Below are positions 17,318-33,554 of a stretch of 64,000 nt of DNA, in pieces. Under the pieces are notes generated by a model. It was not told the origin of the DNA, made no database searches, and was given only the letters and a program-made list of their open reading frames with translations. The stretch comes from Arthrobacter sp. SLBN-112. GTDB taxonomy: Bacteria; Actinomycetota; Actinomycetes; Actinomycetales; Micrococcaceae. Where the stretch lies: contig NZ_JAUSXY010000001.1 in the NCBI RefSeq assembly GCF_030944625.1, positions 3,782,001 through 3,846,000 of the forward strand, written 5' to 3'. The number at the start of each line of letters is the position of its first letter. Position 1 is the first letter of the stretch. The position numbers were made by a program, and so were the translations under genes.

Positions 17318-17397
17318 ATTCGGACCTGTGTTGTGCGTCTCATGATGCAGTCTCCCGGCCGGGCCTCACGCCGGTTTGCTGACCCGGATAGGCAAAA

Positions 17398-17451
17398 GTC
17401 ACAGCGCGTTAACAAACATCGACTGTCCGCGAAACGAGCCTTCCCTACCTT
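17398..17451 (+). promoter_or_regulatory. GlnR-like half-site array and -10 of narK
   Basis: GTCAC (17398), TTAAC (17409), a degenerate CGACT (17420) and GAAAC (17431) recur at exactly 11-bp steps, the spacing of GlnR boxes. GAAAC is followed by ten bases and TACCTT (17446-17451), a TAnnnT -10 hexamer. The same layout occurs before nirB and the gene at 32661. Confidence 0.7.
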
Positions 17452-26964: not shown

Positions 26965-27345
26965 CTAGAGTTTCACTTCGACGAACCCGTTGGTGATCCG
27001 GGTGCTGAACGCATCCAGGCGCAGGCCCGGGGTGGTGAAGCATTCACCGGTTTCGAGGTCGTAGACCTCTTTGTGCAGCGGCGAGGCGATCGTGGGGCGC
27101 GTGCCCTTGGAACCAAGGATGCCGCGCGCCATGACGTGCGCGCCGGTGGCCGGATCCTGATGGCCCACGGCGAAGACTTCGCTTGGGCCGGTGCGGAACA
27201 ACGCCACCTGCATGCCTGCTACCAGGGCGGCCTCGCCCCAGGCGGGTTCGAGGTCATCCACCGCGCAGACACGGTGCCAGCCGGTCCGGAATCCGGCGGT
27301 GTCTGATTCGGCGGCGAGCGCCCCAAGTTCCAGTGTTGCCGTCAT
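26965..27345 (-). CDS. nirD: Assimilatory nitrite reductase small subunit
   Basis: This 126-residue Rieske-fold protein partners with NirB. The central WHRVCAVDDLEPAWGEAALV (about 22-41) and the C-terminal IASPLHKEVYDLETGEC (about 91-107) match NirD; as usual for NirD the Rieske Cys/His pairs are missing, so no iron-sulfur cluster is bound. The ATG at 27345 has AGGAG ten bases upstream; the frame upstream of it is not supported. Unlike the common nirBD operon it is divergent from nirB with a 259-bp gap, so the two subunits need coordinated but separate promoters. Confidence 0.92.
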   Translation of the reverse strand: MTATLELGALAAESDTAGFRTGWHRVCAVDDLEPAWGEAALVAGMQVALFRTGPSEVFAVGHQDPATGAHVMARGILGSKGTRPTIASPLHKEVYDLETGECFTTPGLRLDAFSTRITNGFVEVKL

Positions 27346-27500
27346 GTCCGGCTCCTCTCCCTGTGCCTGTTGTCTTTGCAAGCGGCTGCTTGTGCTGCCG
27401 TGTTCCACGCTAGGTTCCGGGTGTTTCAAGGGGGTGCGGTGAATGTGTCCGGCGGGTAAAAGAGAATTCACGCGGCCGGAAATGCGTTCGTGATGCAGAA

Positions 27501-27554
27501 GTTAAGTTGACGAAACAAAAGGGAAACTGAGGCGAAACTGCCCCTCCCTAGGCT
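27501..27554 (+). promoter_or_regulatory. GlnR-like four-half-site array and -10 of nirB
   Basis: GTTAA (27501), GAAAC (27512), GAAAC (27523) and GAAAC (27534) repeat at exactly 11 bp. Ten bases after the last comes TAGGCT (27549-27554), the -10 hexamer. This fits two adjoining GlnR boxes of the GTnAC-N6-GnAAC type. Confidence 0.75.
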
Positions 27555-27604: not shown

Positions 27605-30247
27605 GTGACCGAACAGACTTCAAGCACCGAGACTCCGCGCCGCATCGTCGTCGCCGGCGGCGGCCCTGCGGCCCACCGTTTCGCGGACGCCATGCATGCC
27701 CGCGGCCTCGACGGCTGGCATGTCACGGTCCTCACCGAAGAAGCCCACCTCCCCTACGACCGGGTGGCACTCTCCAAGGCCCTCACGGACACCGGCGTGG
27801 ACCTGACGCTGGGAACGGCCACCATGTGGGACCACGGCTCCGTGGCCCTGAAGACCGGCGAGCGCGTCGTCAAGGTCAACGCCGAAGCCAAGACGGTGGA
27901 AACGGCCGCAGGCAACACCTACGAATATGACGAACTGGTGGTGGCCACAGGCTCGGACGCCGTGCGCCTGCCCATCCCCGGCGCCCAGCACGCCCACGTC
28001 TACCGGACGCTCGAGGACGTGTGGGCCATCAACAAGGCCGTCACAGAACTCACCGAAAAGCTCGGCCGCAAGATCAACGCCGTCACCATCGGCGGCGGCC
28101 TCCTGGGGCTCGAATCCGCCGCCGGCACCGAACAGCTCGGCGCCACCCCCGTAGTCATCAACGGGGCCCCCTGGCTGATGAACACCCAACTGGACGAGGG
28201 CGCAGGCCAGGCCCTGGGCCGCCTGATCGAAGCCAAGGGCTTCGAGGTCCACGGCGGAGTGTTCCCGTCCGAGATCCTGGCGGACGACGACGGCCAGGTC
28301 ACCGGGGTGCTGATGGCCGATGAACGCATCATCCCGGCCGACCTGGTGATCGTGGCGGTCGGCGTCAAGCCCCGCGACGAGCTCTTCCGGGCCGCCGACG
28401 GCGAAGAGCAGCTTTTCAGCCTGGGCCAGCGCGGCGGCGTGGTCATCAACGACTACTGCGCCACCGAGGTCCCCGGCATCTGGGCCATCGGCGAGGTAGC
28501 CAACTTCGGCGGCATGTGCCTTGGCCTGGTGGCTCCCGCCAACACCATGGCCGAGATCGTTGCCGACCGGCTGCACGGCGGCGACGCCACCTTCCCCGGC
28601 TTCGACACCGCCACCAAACTTAAGCTCTCCGGCGTGGACGTGGCCAGCTTCGGGGACGCCTTTGCCCGCACCGAGCACGCCCTCGAAATCGTTTACGCGG
28701 ATCCCGCACGCGGCGTGTACCAGAAAATCGTCACCACGGATGACGCCAAGACCCTCCTGGGCGGCATTTTCGTCGGCGACGCCTCTCCCTACATGAGCCT
28801 GCGCCCGCTCCTGGGCCGCGAACTTCCCGCCGAGCCCGGCGCATTCCTCAGCGCCGCAGGCGGCGGCGAAGCCCCCGAAACCGAGCTTCCCGACGACGCC
28901 ACCCTCTGCTCCTGCAACAACGTCACGGCCGGAACCATCCGGGACGCCATCAACGGCTGCGGCGCATGCGAGGGCAATGCGCCCGTCCAGGAACTGGGCG
29001 AGCTGAAGGGCTGCACCCGTGCCGGAACCCAGTGCGGTTCCTGTGTCCCCATGCTGAAGAAGCTGCTGGAAACCGAGCTGACCAAGTCCGGCGTCGAGGT
29101 CTCCAAGGCGCTGTGCGAGCACATCGAGCTGTCCCGCCAGGAACTGTTCGACGCCATCCGCGTCCTGGGACTGACCTCCTTCGAGGAGATCATGGCCAAG
29201 TATGGCACCGGGGCAGGCTGCGACATCTGCAAGCCCACCATTGCCAACATCCTGGCCAGCCAGAACAGCGCCTACGTGCTGGACGCCGGCCGCGGCACCC
29301 TCCAGGACACCAACGACCGGGCCCTGGCCAACATGCAGAAGGATGGCACCTACTCGGTGGTCCCCCGCATCGCGGGCGGGGAAATTACTCCCAAGAAGCT
29401 CGGTGTGATCGCCGCCGTCGCCGAAAAGTACGGCCTCTACACCAAGATCACCGGCGGCCAGCGGATCGACATGTTCGGTGCCCGGCTGGAGCAGCTCCCG
29501 GAGATCTGGAAGGAATTGGTGGACGCCGGCTTCGAGTCCGGCCAGGCGTACGGCAAGAGTCTGCGGACGGTGAAGTCGTGCGTCGGTTCCACCTGGTGCC
29601 GGTTCGGCGTGCAGGACTCGGTAGCCATGGCCATCCAGCTGGAGCTGCGCTACCGCGGCCTGCGCAGCCCGCACAAGCTGAAAATGGGCGTCTCCGGCTG
29701 TGCCCGTGAATGTGCCGAGGCCCGCGGCAAGGACGTCGGCGTCATCGCCACCGCGGACGGCTGGAACCTCTACGTCGGCGGCAACGGCGGAGCCACCCCC
29801 GCCCACGCCCAGCTCCTGGCCAAGGACCTGGACGACGAAACCCTCATCAAGTACATCGACCGCTACTTCATGTACTACATCCGCACTGCGGACCGCCTTC
29901 AGCGCACCGCCCGGTGGCAGGAAGAGCTCGAGGGCGGCATCAAGCACGTCGAGGACGTGGTGGTCAAGGACACCCTGGGCATCGCCGCCGACCTTGAAGC
30001 GGCCATGGCGAAACACGTGGACACCTACGTGGATGAATGGGCGGACACCCTCAAGGACCCCGAACGGCTACGCCGGTTCCGTTCCTTCGTCAACGCACCC
30101 GACCAGAAGGACGATTCCATCACGTTCGTCCCGGACGAGCGCGGCCAGATGCGCCCCGCCACCGCGGAGGAAAAAGGCAAAGTCCTGATTGGCGCTTCCA
30201 TCCCGATCCGCGCCGCCACGCCGGAAACAACTGGAAACGAGGCATAA
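27605..30247 (+). CDS. nirB: Nitrite reductase (NAD(P)H) large subunit, siroheme protein
   Basis: This 880-residue enzyme reduces nitrite to ammonium in the cytoplasm. Order: FAD motif VVAGGGPAAHRFADAMHARG (about 15-34), NAD motif TIGGGLLGLESAAGTEQLG (about 161-179), a BFD-like [2Fe-2S] domain beginning LCSCNNVTAGTIRDAI (about 435-450) with GTQCGSC (about 475-481), the nitrite/sulfite reductase ferredoxin-like half-domain, and the siroheme/[4Fe-4S] ligands in CVGSTWC (about 658-664) and SGCAREC (about 697-703). All cofactor residues are intact. GTG start. The siroheme methyltransferase gene begins one base after the stop, in one operon with the regulator that follows. Confidence 0.95.
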   Translation: MTEQTSSTETPRRIVVAGGGPAAHRFADAMHARGLDGWHVTVLTEEAHLPYDRVALSKALTDTGVDLTLGTATMWDHGSVALKTGERVVKVNAEAKTVETAAGNTYEYDELVVATGSDAVRLPIPGAQHAHVYRTLEDVWAINKAVTELTEKLGRKINAVTIGGGLLGLESAAGTEQLGATPVVINGAPWLMNTQLDEGAGQALGRLIEAKGFEVHGGVFPSEILADDDGQVTGVLMADERIIPADLVIVAVGVKPRDELFRAADGEEQLFSLGQRGGVVINDYCATEVPGIWAIGEVANFGGMCLGLVAPANTMAEIVADRLHGGDATFPGFDTATKLKLSGVDVASFGDAFARTEHALEIVYADPARGVYQKIVTTDDAKTLLGGIFVGDASPYMSLRPLLGRELPAEPGAFLSAAGGGEAPETELPDDATLCSCNNVTAGTIRDAINGCGACEGNAPVQELGELKGCTRAGTQCGSCVPMLKKLLETELTKSGVEVSKALCEHIELSRQELFDAIRVLGLTSFEEIMAKYGTGAGCDICKPTIANILASQNSAYVLDAGRGTLQDTNDRALANMQKDGTYSVVPRIAGGEITPKKLGVIAAVAEKYGLYTKITGGQRIDMFGARLEQLPEIWKELVDAGFESGQAYGKSLRTVKSCVGSTWCRFGVQDSVAMAIQLELRYRGLRSPHKLKMGVSGCARECAEARGKDVGVIATADGWNLYVGGNGGATPAHAQLLAKDLDDETLIKYIDRYFMYYIRTADRLQRTARWQEELEGGIKHVEDVVVKDTLGIAADLEAAMAKHVDTYVDEWADTLKDPERLRRFRSFVNAPDQKDDSITFVPDERGQMRPATAEEKGKVLIGASIPIRAATPETTGNEA

Positions 30248-30248
30248 C

Positions 30249-31280
30249 ATGCAGCTCAGTATCGACCTCACGGGCCGGGACGTCCTGGTGACCGGCACAG
30301 ACACTGCCGCGCGGCAGGCGGTGCGGCGGTACGAAGCCGCGGGCGCCGTCGTCCACCGCCTCAGCAGCCCGGGCAGCGCCCACGGCGCCCACCTGCCTGA
30401 GCGGCTGTTCCTGGTCGCCGCCGTCGAGGACGGACAGCCAGGCTGGGGCGCCCTAGTGGACCGCTGCCGGGACGCCGGCATCCCGGTCGCCGCGGAGCCT
30501 GCCGCAGGCCCTGCCGGGCACGTCACCCTGGTGGGCGGCGGTCCCGGCACCGGTGACCTGCTCACCGTGGCTGCGGTCAAGGCGCTCCGGGATGCGGACG
30601 TCGTCTTCTATGACCGGCTGGCCCCGTACCAGGAGCTGCCGCTGCTGACTTCCGCCGAGCTGGTGGACGTCGGAAAGAAGCCGGGCCACCACAAGGTCAG
30701 CCAGTCGGACATCGAAAAACTGATGGTCGACAGCGCCCTGGCCGGCAACAACGTGGTCCGCCTCAAGGGCGGGGACCCCTATGTCTTCGGCCGAGGCGGC
30801 GAGGAGGTAGCCGCGTGCGTGGCCGCCGGTGTCAAGGTCCACGTAGTGTCCGGTGTGACCAGCGCCATCTCGGTGCCGGCCGCCGCCGGCATCCCGGTCA
30901 CCCACCGCGAAGTCAGCCACATGTTCACGGTGGTTTCCGGGCACGCCCCGCTCACCGAAAAAGAACACCACCACCTGGCCGGCCTGGGCGGGACCATCGT
31001 GGTGCTGATGGGCATCGGGACCCTTCACCAGCTCGCCGCAGGCCTGCGCCGCGCCGGGATGCGCCCGGACATGCCCATGGCAGTGGTGGAACGCGGCTAC
31101 CGGCCCGGCCAGCGCACCACCATCGCGGACCTGGGCACCATCACCTCCGCCGCTGCCGGTTGCAGCAACCCGGCAGTACTGGTCATCGGCGAGGTGGTCC
31201 GGGTGGCCGAAGTCAACCGGCAGCATGCCGGAGCCGCCGCCGACCTGGACAGGCTGGCGGCCTCGCTGCTGGGATCATGA
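30249..31280 (+). CDS. cobA: Uroporphyrinogen-III C-methyltransferase with vestigial N-terminal domain
   Basis: This 343-residue enzyme methylates uroporphyrinogen III twice with SAM to give precorrin-2, the siroheme precursor needed by NirB. The methyltransferase domain starts near 93 (HVTLVGGGPGTGDLLT) and contains YDRLAP (about 120-125), VRLKGGDPYVFGRGGEE (about 158-174) and VVSGVTSAISVPAAAGIPVT (about 199-218). The first ~90 residues resemble a shortened precorrin-2 dehydrogenase (CysG-N): a Rossmann-like VLVTGTDTAARQAVRRYEAA but no complete GxGxxA loop or catalytic C-terminal half. Precorrin-2 oxidation and iron insertion must therefore be encoded elsewhere or occur here inefficiently. 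Confidence 0.92.
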   Translation: MQLSIDLTGRDVLVTGTDTAARQAVRRYEAAGAVVHRLSSPGSAHGAHLPERLFLVAAVEDGQPGWGALVDRCRDAGIPVAAEPAAGPAGHVTLVGGGPGTGDLLTVAAVKALRDADVVFYDRLAPYQELPLLTSAELVDVGKKPGHHKVSQSDIEKLMVDSALAGNNVVRLKGGDPYVFGRGGEEVAACVAAGVKVHVVSGVTSAISVPAAAGIPVTHREVSHMFTVVSGHAPLTEKEHHHLAGLGGTIVVLMGIGTLHQLAAGLRRAGMRPDMPMAVVERGYRPGQRTTIADLGTITSAAAGCSNPAVLVIGEVVRVAEVNRQHAGAAADLDRLAASLLGS

Positions 31281-31294
31281 AAGGATTGACCCCC

Positions 31295-32458
31295 ATGACC
31301 GCACTTGCACCGGCCGAACAGACGCAGCCCGAACCCACGCAGGCTGAAGAAGCAACGGATGCCGCGGAATCGCCGCTGGAGGGGTTCCGCATCGGCGTCA
31401 CCTCGGACCGGCGCTCCCGCGACCTCATCGAGGCGCTGGAACGGCGCGGCGCGGAAGTGCTGCATGCCCCTGCACTGAAGATCGCCCCCGTCCAGGAGGA
31501 CATGCGCCTCATCGAGGACACCCGGGCCATCATCGCGGCGAAGCCGGACCTGTGCATTGCCACCACGGCCTACGGCATGCGCCGTTGGTGCGAGGCCGCA
31601 GACTCCTTCGGCATTGGCGATGAACTGCTGGAAACGCTGGGAAGCTGCCGGATGTTCGTCCGGGGACCCAAAGCCCGCGGTGCCGTGCGCGCGGCCGGCC
31701 TTGCCGACGTCGGGATCAGCAGTGACGAGACCACCGCCACCTTGGTGGACATGCTGCTCACCGAAGGCGTGAAGGGCAAGACCGTGGCCATGCAGCTGCA
31801 CGGCTACACCGATGTCCGCCAGATCGAACGGTTGCGGATGTCCGGTGCCACCGTCCTGACCGTCACGCCCTACCGCTGGGTGAAGCCTGACGGCGAAGAC
31901 AAGCTTCCGCGGCTGATCGAGGCCGCCTGCAACGGGAACCTGGACGTCCTCACCTTCACCAGTGCCCCCGCGGTGGACGCCATGTGGAGCACGGCCCATG
32001 AGATGGGGCTGTACAAGCAGTTGGTGGAGAGCCTGAAGCTGAATGTCACCACCGCCGTGGTGGGTCCCGTGACAGCACAGCCTCTCCTCGACGCGGGCGT
32101 GACGCCGCTCATCCCGGAACGTTTCCGCATGGGGGCCCTCATCCGGCTGGTGTGCGAGCACCTGGCACTGAACCACGTCCGGCGGCTGGATACCCGCTCC
32201 GGAAACATCGAGCTTCGCGGCCGCAGCCTGCGGATCGACGGCCAGGCAGTGGAACTGGCACCCGCTCCCTTGCTGCTCCTGCGCGCCCTGCTGGGTGCCG
32301 GCGGCGCTGTCCTGTCCCGTGAATCCCTCTCCGACCTGCTGGAACTTCGGGGTTCCGTGCACGCGCTGGACATGACGGTCAGCCGGCTGCGGTCCTCGCT
32401 GCCGGACGGCAAGCTCATTGAAACCGTGGTCAAGCGCGGCTACCGGATCCGCCTCTAG
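31295..32458 (+). CDS. nnaR: HemD-like/winged-helix regulator of nitrate assimilation (NnaR type)
   Basis: This 387-residue protein joins a uroporphyrinogen-III synthase-like domain (FRIGVTSDRRSRDLIEALER, from about 31) to a C-terminal OmpR-type winged helix (about 295-387: SRESLSDLLELRGSVHALDM, KLIETVVKRGYRIRL). The same fusion is NnaR of Streptomyces and mycobacteria, a DNA-binding co-activator that works with GlnR on nitrate/nitrite genes. Its position directly after nirB-cobA supports that role, as an autoregulated operon member. I chose ATG 31295 because AGGA lies nine bases upstream; ATG 31277, overlapping the cobA stop, is the alternative. Synthase activity is possible but unproven. 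Confidence 0.85.
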   Translation: MTALAPAEQTQPEPTQAEEATDAAESPLEGFRIGVTSDRRSRDLIEALERRGAEVLHAPALKIAPVQEDMRLIEDTRAIIAAKPDLCIATTAYGMRRWCEAADSFGIGDELLETLGSCRMFVRGPKARGAVRAAGLADVGISSDETTATLVDMLLTEGVKGKTVAMQLHGYTDVRQIERLRMSGATVLTVTPYRWVKPDGEDKLPRLIEAACNGNLDVLTFTSAPAVDAMWSTAHEMGLYKQLVESLKLNVTTAVVGPVTAQPLLDAGVTPLIPERFRMGALIRLVCEHLALNHVRRLDTRSGNIELRGRSLRIDGQAVELAPAPLLLLRALLGAGGAVLSRESLSDLLELRGSVHALDMTVSRLRSSLPDGKLIETVVKRGYRIRL

Positions 32459-32546: not shown

Positions 32547-32562
32547 AGGACCCCTGGAAACA

Positions 32563-32605
32563 GCAATGGACGGGTAACACAACCGAAAAAGCAAGCCCCT
32601 ACGCT
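32563..32605 (+). promoter_or_regulatory. GlnR-like half-sites and -10 of the 32.66-kb FAD protein
   Basis: GCAAT (32563), GTAAC (32574) and GAAAA (32585) at 11-bp steps, then exactly ten bases to TACGCT (32600-32605). The layout is identical to that of narK and nirB. Confidence 0.65.
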
Positions 32606-32660: not shown

Positions 32661-33554
32661 ATGTCCGCTCCGGCACCCTCACCGTCCACCTCCGACGCAA
32701 CCCGCATCGTCATCGCCGGCGCCGGACCGGCCGCCCAAGCCCTGGTGGCACAGTTGGACCGCGCCCGTTTCACCGGCAACATCACCGTGCTGAGCAACCG
32801 TGACGACACCCCCGCCGAACTGCTGGAGCTGGCCATGCTGCCCCAGGTTTCCGTGCGGTTCGGCCAGCCAGCAAGCCATGTCGACGCCGCCAACCGAACG
32901 GTGGCCACCGCCGACGGCATGGAATTCGCGTACGACCACCTGGTCATTGCCACCGGTTCCGCCCCCGTCGCCAACCCCGTGGACGGCGCCGCCCAGTGCC
33001 TGAGCTACTCCACCATCGATGACGCCCCGCGCATCGCCGAGGGAGTGCAGGAAATCACCCGGGAGCTGGGGCGACGGCCCGTCGGCATCCTCGTCGGTAC
33101 GGGCGCGGCTGCCGGACAGGCTGAAGCAGTACTCCGGGCCAAGGGCGTGCGGCCCATCCGCACCACGGCCCGGCCCGCCGCCGTCGTACCTTCCGTTGCC
33201 CCGGGCGGATCCCCCTCCGGCCTGGCCACGTCCGCCGTCGTCTTCGAGGACGGCAGCAGCATGACCGGAGACCTGGTGGTCCTGGCCGAGGAGCGGGTGT
33301 CCCGGGACAGCCTCGCCGCCACTGCGGGTGTGCGAACGGCCGCCGGCGGCGGCATCGTGATCAGCCGTGACTTCCGCACCTCGGTCCCCGGCATTTGGGC
33401 CATCGGTGACGCCGCGGCGTTCGACGGCGTGCGGCTGGGCCTGCTGGTCGCGGCGGCGTCCGCTGCGGGTGCCTGCGCCAGCCAGTTGCTGACCGCTGTT
33501 GCCACAGCGGCTCCGTCCGCCGCTCCCGCGCCTGCACTCCAGGTGGCCGCCTGA
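32661..33554 (+). CDS. Reduced NirB/NasB-like FAD-binding oxidoreductase
   Basis: This 297-residue protein matches the FAD-binding half of NirB: RIVIAGAGPAAQALVAQLDR (about 14-33), the ATGSAPVAN hinge (about 96-104) and the FAD-closing VPGIWAIGDAAAF (about 240-252). The segment expected to hold the NAD(P) loop reads PVGILVGTGAAAGQAEAVLR, with the glycine pattern eroded, and the protein stops without a dimerisation, BFD or siroheme domain. Alanine-rich tail. It may be a non-catalytic or electron-carrier paralogue. Its GlnR-like promoter places it in the nitrate regulon. Strong placement, unknown reaction. Confidence 0.75.
   Translation: MSAPAPSPSTSDATRIVIAGAGPAAQALVAQLDRARFTGNITVLSNRDDTPAELLELAMLPQVSVRFGQPASHVDAANRTVATADGMEFAYDHLVIATGSAPVANPVDGAAQCLSYSTIDDAPRIAEGVQEITRELGRRPVGILVGTGAAAGQAEAVLRAKGVRPIRTTARPAAVVPSVAPGGSPSGLATSAVVFEDGSSMTGDLVVLAEERVSRDSLAATAGVRTAAGGGIVISRDFRTSVPGIWAIGDAAAFDGVRLGLLVAAASAAGACASQLLTAVATAAPSAAPAPALQVAA

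Follow-up and report, generated by a model that had tools for sequence, protein, structure and literature searches.

The nirD–nirB intergenic region

The window, i.e. the whole 64-kb stretch of DNA analysed here, carries the genes for the large and the small subunit of a nitrite reductase in divergent orientation. nirD starts at 27345, and the gene on the other side, downstream of an array of pentamers spaced by 11 bp, is nirB, as the first-pass annotation of this DNA had proposed. A search of 61 genomes of the same genus retrieved a close nirB in 58 of them, five of which had two copies, resulting in 63 loci with 60 distinct sequences. Locus counts in the following list refer to this collection.

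26965–27345, minus strand: nirD, nitrite reductase small subunit (TIGR02378, 86.5 bits; Pfam Rieske_2)
27407–27412, minus strand: predicted −10 of nirD, TAGCGT, ten bases beyond b2′ (TANNNT in 61/63 loci)
27423–27427, minus strand: mirror half-site b2′, GAAAC (GAAAC in 59/63 loci, GTTAC in 2/63)
27434–27438, minus strand: mirror half-site a2′, CGCAC, which matches the GlnR half-site poorly (as in most loci)
27445–27449, minus strand: mirror half-site b1′, GACAC (GACAC in 61/63 loci)
27456–27460, minus strand: mirror half-site a1′, TTTAC (TTTAC in 61/63 loci)
27467–27494, no strand: NnaR-type operator TTCACG-N16-CGTGAT, with arms TTCAC (27467–27471) and GTGAT (27490–27494) and 18 bp between them
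27479–27483, plus strand: GAAAT between the arms of the NnaR-type operator and in 11-bp register with the nirB ladder
27501–27505, plus strand: GlnR-type half-site a1, GTTAA (GTTAA in 62/63 loci)
27512–27516, plus strand: GlnR-type half-site b1, GAAAC (no variation in the 60 distinct sequences)
27523–27527, plus strand: GlnR-type half-site a2, GAAAC (no variation in the 60 distinct sequences)
27534–27538, plus strand: GlnR-type half-site b2, GAAAC (GAAAC in 59/63 loci, GAAAT in 4/63)
27539–27548, plus strand: spacer TGCCCCTCCC, ten bases from b2 to the −10
27549–27554, plus strand: predicted −10 of nirB, TAGGCT, ten bases beyond b2
27605–30247, plus strand: nirB, nitrite reductase large subunit (TIGR02374, an NCBIfam model, 911.8 bits)
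30249–31280, plus strand: uroporphyrinogen-III C-methyltransferase (siroheme), between nirB and nnaR (TIGR01469, 252.9 bits)
31277–32458, plus strand: nnaR homologue with a HemD and an OmpR-type DNA-binding domain (HEM4, 140.3 bits; Trans_reg_C, 36.7 bits)

On direct reading, the positions given earlier for the nirB side, GTTAA at 27501, GAAAC at 27512, 27523 and 27534 and TAGGCT at 27549, are exact. The half-site a1 departs from GTnAC at its fifth base. The −35 place (27526–27531) reads ACTGAG, which is unlike TTGACA, and is overlapped by a2, the third half-site. Upstream of this ladder lies a palindrome whose right arm begins 11 bp ahead of a1 and which ends six bases ahead of the ladder. 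On the minus strand, starting out from the left arm of the palindrome, GTGAA, TTTAC, GACAC, CGCAC and GAAAC follow each other in 11-bp steps and are followed, after ten bases, by TAGCGT. The resulting offsets (0, 11, 22, 33, 44 and 59) are identical to those of the nirB side.

Conservation of the two ladders

The 11-bp register, the central point of the first-pass annotation, is real and not due to chance: the three GAAA[C/T] and the ten-base gap are found at every one of the 63 nirB loci of the genus. A simple product derived from the base composition of the 64-kb window predicts about 2.1 GAAAC-N6-GAAAC pairs and 0.001 in-register triples per 4.39-Mb genome. The genome, a single contig of this size, actually contains 11 such pairs, as compared to none for the reversed pattern, and its only in-register GAAAC triple is the nirB ladder, which accounts for two overlapping pairs out of the 11. 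All 63 loci share GAAAC-N6-GAAAC-N6-GAAA[C/T] followed at the same distance by TANNCT, and several of the linker bases between the half-sites vary across them. The −10 itself occurs as TAGTCT (38 loci), TAGGCT (22), TACGCT (2) and TAGCCT (1). The closest named nirB loci are those of Arthrobacter and Pseudarthrobacter, which places the genome in this group. Among 80 named loci of the Arthrobacter/Pseudarthrobacter/Paenarthrobacter type, a set that shares species in part with the 63, 78 matched strictly and had TANNNT at a distance of ten bases; L259 and L284 have one altered half-site each. As the loci are related, these counts are not independent of one another.

Beyond the genus, an order-wide nirB search at an E-value of 1e-60 matched only 5 of 119 genomes, and a family search at 1e-40 with matches in 162 of 295 genomes was used in its place. 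From the matches listed, we picked 40 loci (39 genomes) by hand for spread over genera, so that all family counts are counts of that choice. In 35 of the 40 family loci, we found a ladder of four rungs followed after ten bases by TA...T, with the −10 being part of the score by which sites were chosen. When the −10 was left out of the scoring, the same site was still the best in 28 loci, 26 of which had TA...T ten bases on.

A 54-column matrix trained on the 35 non-genus family nirB promoters with a full −10 ranked the nirB ladder (27501, plus strand) first among the 127,894 positions of the window with a score of 43.8. The second rank was taken by the mirror ladder (27460, minus strand) with 18.55. 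For comparison, 60 random 64-kb windows yielded a maximum of 16.4 and a mean of 6.4. Since a score of 18.55 alone is modest against this maximum, the case for the nirD side rests on position and conservation. When this matrix, which contains only nirB-side sites from outside the genus, was applied to the minus strand, the predicted mirror place was the best of 447 to 507 positions in 61 of the 63 genus loci, the exceptions being L076, where it is one base off, and L078, where a second palindrome lies in between. The mirror place also came first in 77 of the 78 testable loci among the 80 named ones.

Is the nirD-facing ladder a chance resemblance or a relic, with nirB alone under control? The score close to the null maximum and the poor half-site a2′ could be taken as hints in this direction. 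In the genus, a2′ reads TGCAC (15 loci), CGCAC (13), TGCAT (9) or CGCAT (6), the remainder being mixed. Against this reading speaks the spacing kept in nearly all genus and named loci. Moreover, the unconstrained best minus-strand site of the family loci leaves 16 to 19 bp between the implied arms in 22 of 40 cases (scores 4.1 to 24.2), the gap in the window itself being 18 bp. We therefore regard a fortuitous or decayed nirD-side ladder as very improbable. In 11 of the 40 family loci, namely L124, L126, L127, L129, L134, L141, L143, L147, L148, L149 and L161, the gap amounts to 62 to 141 bp (scores −1.3 to 22.9, some of them doubtful), and in seven there is no such pair, five of these being the ladderless loci. 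The two gap classes suggest that a shared form and perhaps also a split form of the arrangement exist in the family. Of the loci with the wide gap, four (L126, L143, L149 and L161) contain TCAC-N18-GTGA at a place farther upstream, toward nirD. In Arthrobacter bambusae (L280) and in L078, the NnaR-type palindrome is repeated, with a second copy lying between the ladders.

Candidate regulators and related promoters

In a search of the genome, 15 OmpR-type DNA-binding domains were found. One of the proteins, L009, has its best PDB matches in 8hih (E 2.4e-75) and 8hig, which we take to be entries of the GlnR complex. It also matches 4o1h, entitled 'Transcription regulator GlnR' (E 2.6e-25). Although no NCBIfam model matched L009 above its cut-off, its PDB relatives clearly point to a GlnR homologue, and the glnR gene that the first-pass annotation had suggested looking for is thus present. 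GlnR half-sites of the GTnAC/GAAAC type are arranged in 11-bp steps, commonly four per promoter (a1-b1-a2-b2), and in the GlnR complex four DNA-binding domains bind head to tail to four sites and a receiver-domain tetramer contacts RNA polymerase (PMC10704036). A GlnR complex is reportedly the subject of Shi et al. 2023. The four rungs upstream of nirB fit this four-domain complex. In the amtB promoter of Streptomyces coelicolor, the a2 site is found at −35 (PMC5826061). As the −35 place of nirB does not match TTGACA and is overlapped by the third half-site, the class-II-like activator geometry proposed earlier fits as well, in line with the conserved gap to the −10.

Other promoters of the genome have a similar build. 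Of three glutamine synthetase genes, the best-matching one, which was taken as glnA, reached a matrix score of 40.0 with GTAAC-n6-GAAAC-n6-GACAC-n6-GAAAT-n10-TAGGCT and has no NnaR arms; the other two scored below 0. The promoter of ureA (urease gamma, L003) contains two half-sites in the order GAAAC-n6-GAAAC-n10-TAGGCT. L003 was the only convincing promoter among eight of the nine other GAAAC-N6-GAAAC places (L001–L008; the place at 4115020 was left out), and several of the remaining seven lie inside long open frames with no fitting −10 seen. Genes of the amtB family are expected GlnR targets; the 500 bp before the Pfam matches of the three amtB-family genes scored 4.9, 5.3 and 11.0 and contained no good −10. 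glnA and ureA are named among the GlnR targets in a review (PMC10704036). The gap and the TAGGCT shared with these two promoters, together with the GlnR homologue, argue for a GlnR-type binding ladder in front of nirB, for which GlnR is a good reading. The first-pass annotation is supported as to the GlnR-type half-sites and incomplete in that it missed the NnaR-type operator and the ladder facing nirD.

The window contains a further candidate upstream of narK.

17398–17451, plus strand: narK ladder GTCAC, TTAAC, CGACT and GAAAC, ten bases, TACCTT (matrix scan)

With a score of 15.25, below the null maximum, this ladder is supported by conservation only: it was found with small changes in 29 of the 30 best of 38 same-genus narK matches (scores 6.4 to 18.3). 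The one locus without a ladder, L205, has upstream DNA that resembles the end of a further narK gene. In the window, CTCAC is located at 17365, 33 bp ahead of the narK ladder, and GATAG occupies the place of the right arm. Of the 29 same-genus narK loci with the ladder, 24 have CTCAC at −33, one has it at −34, and in four the arm is CTAAC. A weak ladder (GCAAT, GTAAC, GAAAA, ten bases, TACGCT) at 32552–32605 precedes a NirB-like flavoprotein gene at 32661; it scored 13.4, again less than the null maximum of 16.4, and inverted GTTACCGGCCGGTAA letters are found nearby.

A further candidate for the GlnR-type sites of 27407–27554 is MtrA, which is encoded in the genome (L013; NF040689, 340.8 bits at a cut-off of 300). 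In S. coelicolor, MtrA occupies the GlnR boxes of nirB, glnA and other genes and competes with GlnR (PMC6988585). The motifs of the two proteins are described as nearly identical, and MtrA has been reported at the mycobacterial nirB (PMC6277429). The motif as such is unable to separate MtrA from GlnR. Nevertheless, the constant distance of ten bases to the −10 and the absence of a −35 are in keeping with an activator. A review assigns the decisive part to GlnR, and MtrA would leave the NnaR-type palindrome unexplained. MtrA in place of GlnR is therefore an unlikely explanation.

The palindrome at 27467–27494 is, as we infer from its layout, an operator for NnaR, a co-activator of GlnR that is said to be treated in Amin et al. 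2012. The published NnaR box of Mycobacterium smegmatis is ctCAC[a/c]-N16-[t/g]GTGag, a motif that has also been used for M. abscessus. The palindrome agrees with it in the core CAC and GTG and in the spacing and departs from it in several other letters. The right arm, GTGA 11 bp before a1, is conserved in 62 of 63 genus loci. At the left arm, CTCAC predominates (45 loci) over CTAAC (15), with TTCAC and CTATC in one locus each and one arm off register. Of the 40 family loci, 16 have GTGA exactly 11 bp ahead of the ladder and three more have it at 9, 12 or 18 bp, whereas CTCAC occurs at −32 to −35 in 28. The left arm is thus the steadier one in the family. As a stand-alone search for NnaR sites, TCAC-N18-GTGA was rejected, since this pattern by itself showed no enrichment across the genome (17 places as compared to 25 for the reversed control).

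In S. coelicolor, NnaR and GlnR bind cooperatively to the nirB promoter (PMC10704036), and the nirB promoter of M. smegmatis is reported to be bound avidly by NnaR and modestly by GlnR. Could the arms instead be additional GlnR half-sites, such that GlnR alone extends over at least six half-sites and NnaR plays no part? GAAAT at 27479 and GTGAT at 27490 continue the 11-bp register and show conservation within the genus; in g61 and g72, the arm is GTGAC and the inner site is GAAAC; and many ladder-bearing family loci have no GTGA arm. However, the two arms are inverted repeats of each other, the left one being conserved in its own right, and among the 16 family loci that have GTGA at −11, 11 have GTGAG, a pentamer that does not end in C or T as a half-site would. 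In addition, glnA has a ladder without arms, and narK keeps its CTCAC at −33 without a GTGA arm. We consider GlnR acting alone over the extended array improbable and retain the palindrome as a putative NnaR operator. The inner site itself is GAAAT in 32 genus loci, GAAAC in 20, GACAT in 6 and different in 5. GAAAY is thus present at 27479–27483 in 52 of the 63 loci, as well as in four g61 and g72 loci, and may be a GlnR half-site hidden beneath the NnaR operator.

The nnaR homologue is the second gene after nirB, and, going by the reading frame, it begins at a position that overlaps the methyltransferase stop. Transcription of nirB therefore probably feeds its own co-activator. NCBIfam names the protein uroporphyrinogen-III synthase (NF005568, 506.1 bits). 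The five of the 40 family loci without a ladder all belong to genomes in which the NnaR match ends at residue 295 to 331 of 392 and covers little or none of the DNA-binding domain. Of the 35 loci with a ladder, 34 are from genomes that encode NnaR in full length, with a split match in two cases. The exception is L132, from a genome (G208) in which full-length NnaR was not found; here, one nirB copy has kept the ladder and CTCAC, and the GTGA arm is absent. A same-genus genome without a close nirB contains only the C-terminal part of NnaR (residues 224–390; G031:C1:774885-775385), which looks like the remnant of a lost nitrite-assimilation cluster.

Proposed promoter mechanism and comparison with known systems

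Taken together, the region 27407–27554 is probably a two-sided, activator-dependent promoter of nirB and nirD with GlnR on both ladders and NnaR in the centre. Occupancy by the two proteins, the start sites, co-activation of both sides and a shared NnaR dimer are deduced from the arrangement of the sites. In nitrogen shortage, GlnR would bind head to tail to each ladder of four half-sites. The two gene-proximal half-sites would stand in for the −35, which would position GlnR next to RNA polymerase at a distance of ten bases from the −10. NnaR, a probable product of the nirB transcript, would occupy the central palindrome and aid GlnR on the neighbouring ladder, as reported for nirB of S. coelicolor. 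As each arm is one 11-bp step away from the first half-site of its ladder, one NnaR dimer could help GlnR on both sides. With a single palindrome flanked by a ladder on each side, nirB and nirD would be expected to rise together. Expression in Arthrobacter sp. M7-15, where nirBD, nasAB and glnA were up on nitrate as compared to ammonium and went down on addition of ammonium (PMC12010642), agrees with this model and is no proof of the regulator.

A more specific version of the model can be put forward tentatively, and we would sooner bet against it than on it. A single NnaR dimer might seed two outward GlnR filaments through contacts of the DNA-binding domains one helical step from each arm, giving rise to two back-to-back RNA polymerase activation complexes that balance the nitrite reductase subunits. 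Within the genus, the step from arm to ladder is 11 bp on either side. The arm distance of 16 to 19 bp in the family is what a flexible NnaR dimer would allow.

The region resembles the GlnR box promoters of S. coelicolor (glnA, amtB and nirB) in having GTnAC/GAAAC elements every 11 bp and an a2 site at the −35 place as in amtB. Unlike these promoters, it has two ladders running outward from a common centre, and its nirB side consists of a1 GTTAA followed by three consecutive GAAAC. It shares with the NnaR-GlnR promoters of nirB and narK in S. coelicolor and M. smegmatis a palindrome of the NnaR type near a GlnR box; the published spacing is fairly constant, and the right-arm spacing seen here is kept in 62 of 63 genus loci and in 16 of 40 family loci. 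In the excerpts of these studies, however, there is one box per gene or operon, whereas here a ladder lies on either side of the palindrome. GlnR control of divergent genes has a parallel in six pairs of M. smegmatis (PMC3662644). Those pairs are based on ChIP peaks and expression, and the available text describes no mirror ladders around an NnaR operator.

Control of nirB by GlnR and NnaR is thus already known from Streptomyces and mycobacteria, as is GlnR control of divergent pairs as such. The mirror layout was not found in the available parts of the literature searched (PMC6277429, PMC10704036, PMC5826061, PMC11162112, PMC3662644, PMC12010642 and PMC6988585), and a symmetric, common NnaR-type operator between two GlnR-type ladders appears to be an undescribed variant within that literature. 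It would extend GlnR/NnaR control to the soil Arthrobacter group. Being very regular and conserved, the promoter offers a test case for the spacing rules of a head-to-tail activator of the OmpR family and its co-activator, and its two-sided layout permits a direct test of one co-activator dimer driving two opposite promoters.

Across the class, a composite pattern of palindrome and ladder was found at 20 places in 17 of 394 genomes, as compared to one place for the reversed control. Two of these are nirB loci of the genus itself (L105 and L106). Outside the family and judging by the translations, the composite offset precedes nirB in L102, L114 and L116 and nitrate-reductase-like genes in L103 and L104. 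The remaining 13 places, attributed to chance or a repeated motif (L107–L110, L119–L121), were dropped. In another genus of the class, five of eight fetched nirB loci (L168, L171, L172, L173 and L175) have TCAC-N18-GTGA, GTGAY 11 bp on and b2-n10-TANNNT, with matrix scores of 2.2 to −4.8 and a distance from the arm to the −10 that is one base shorter.
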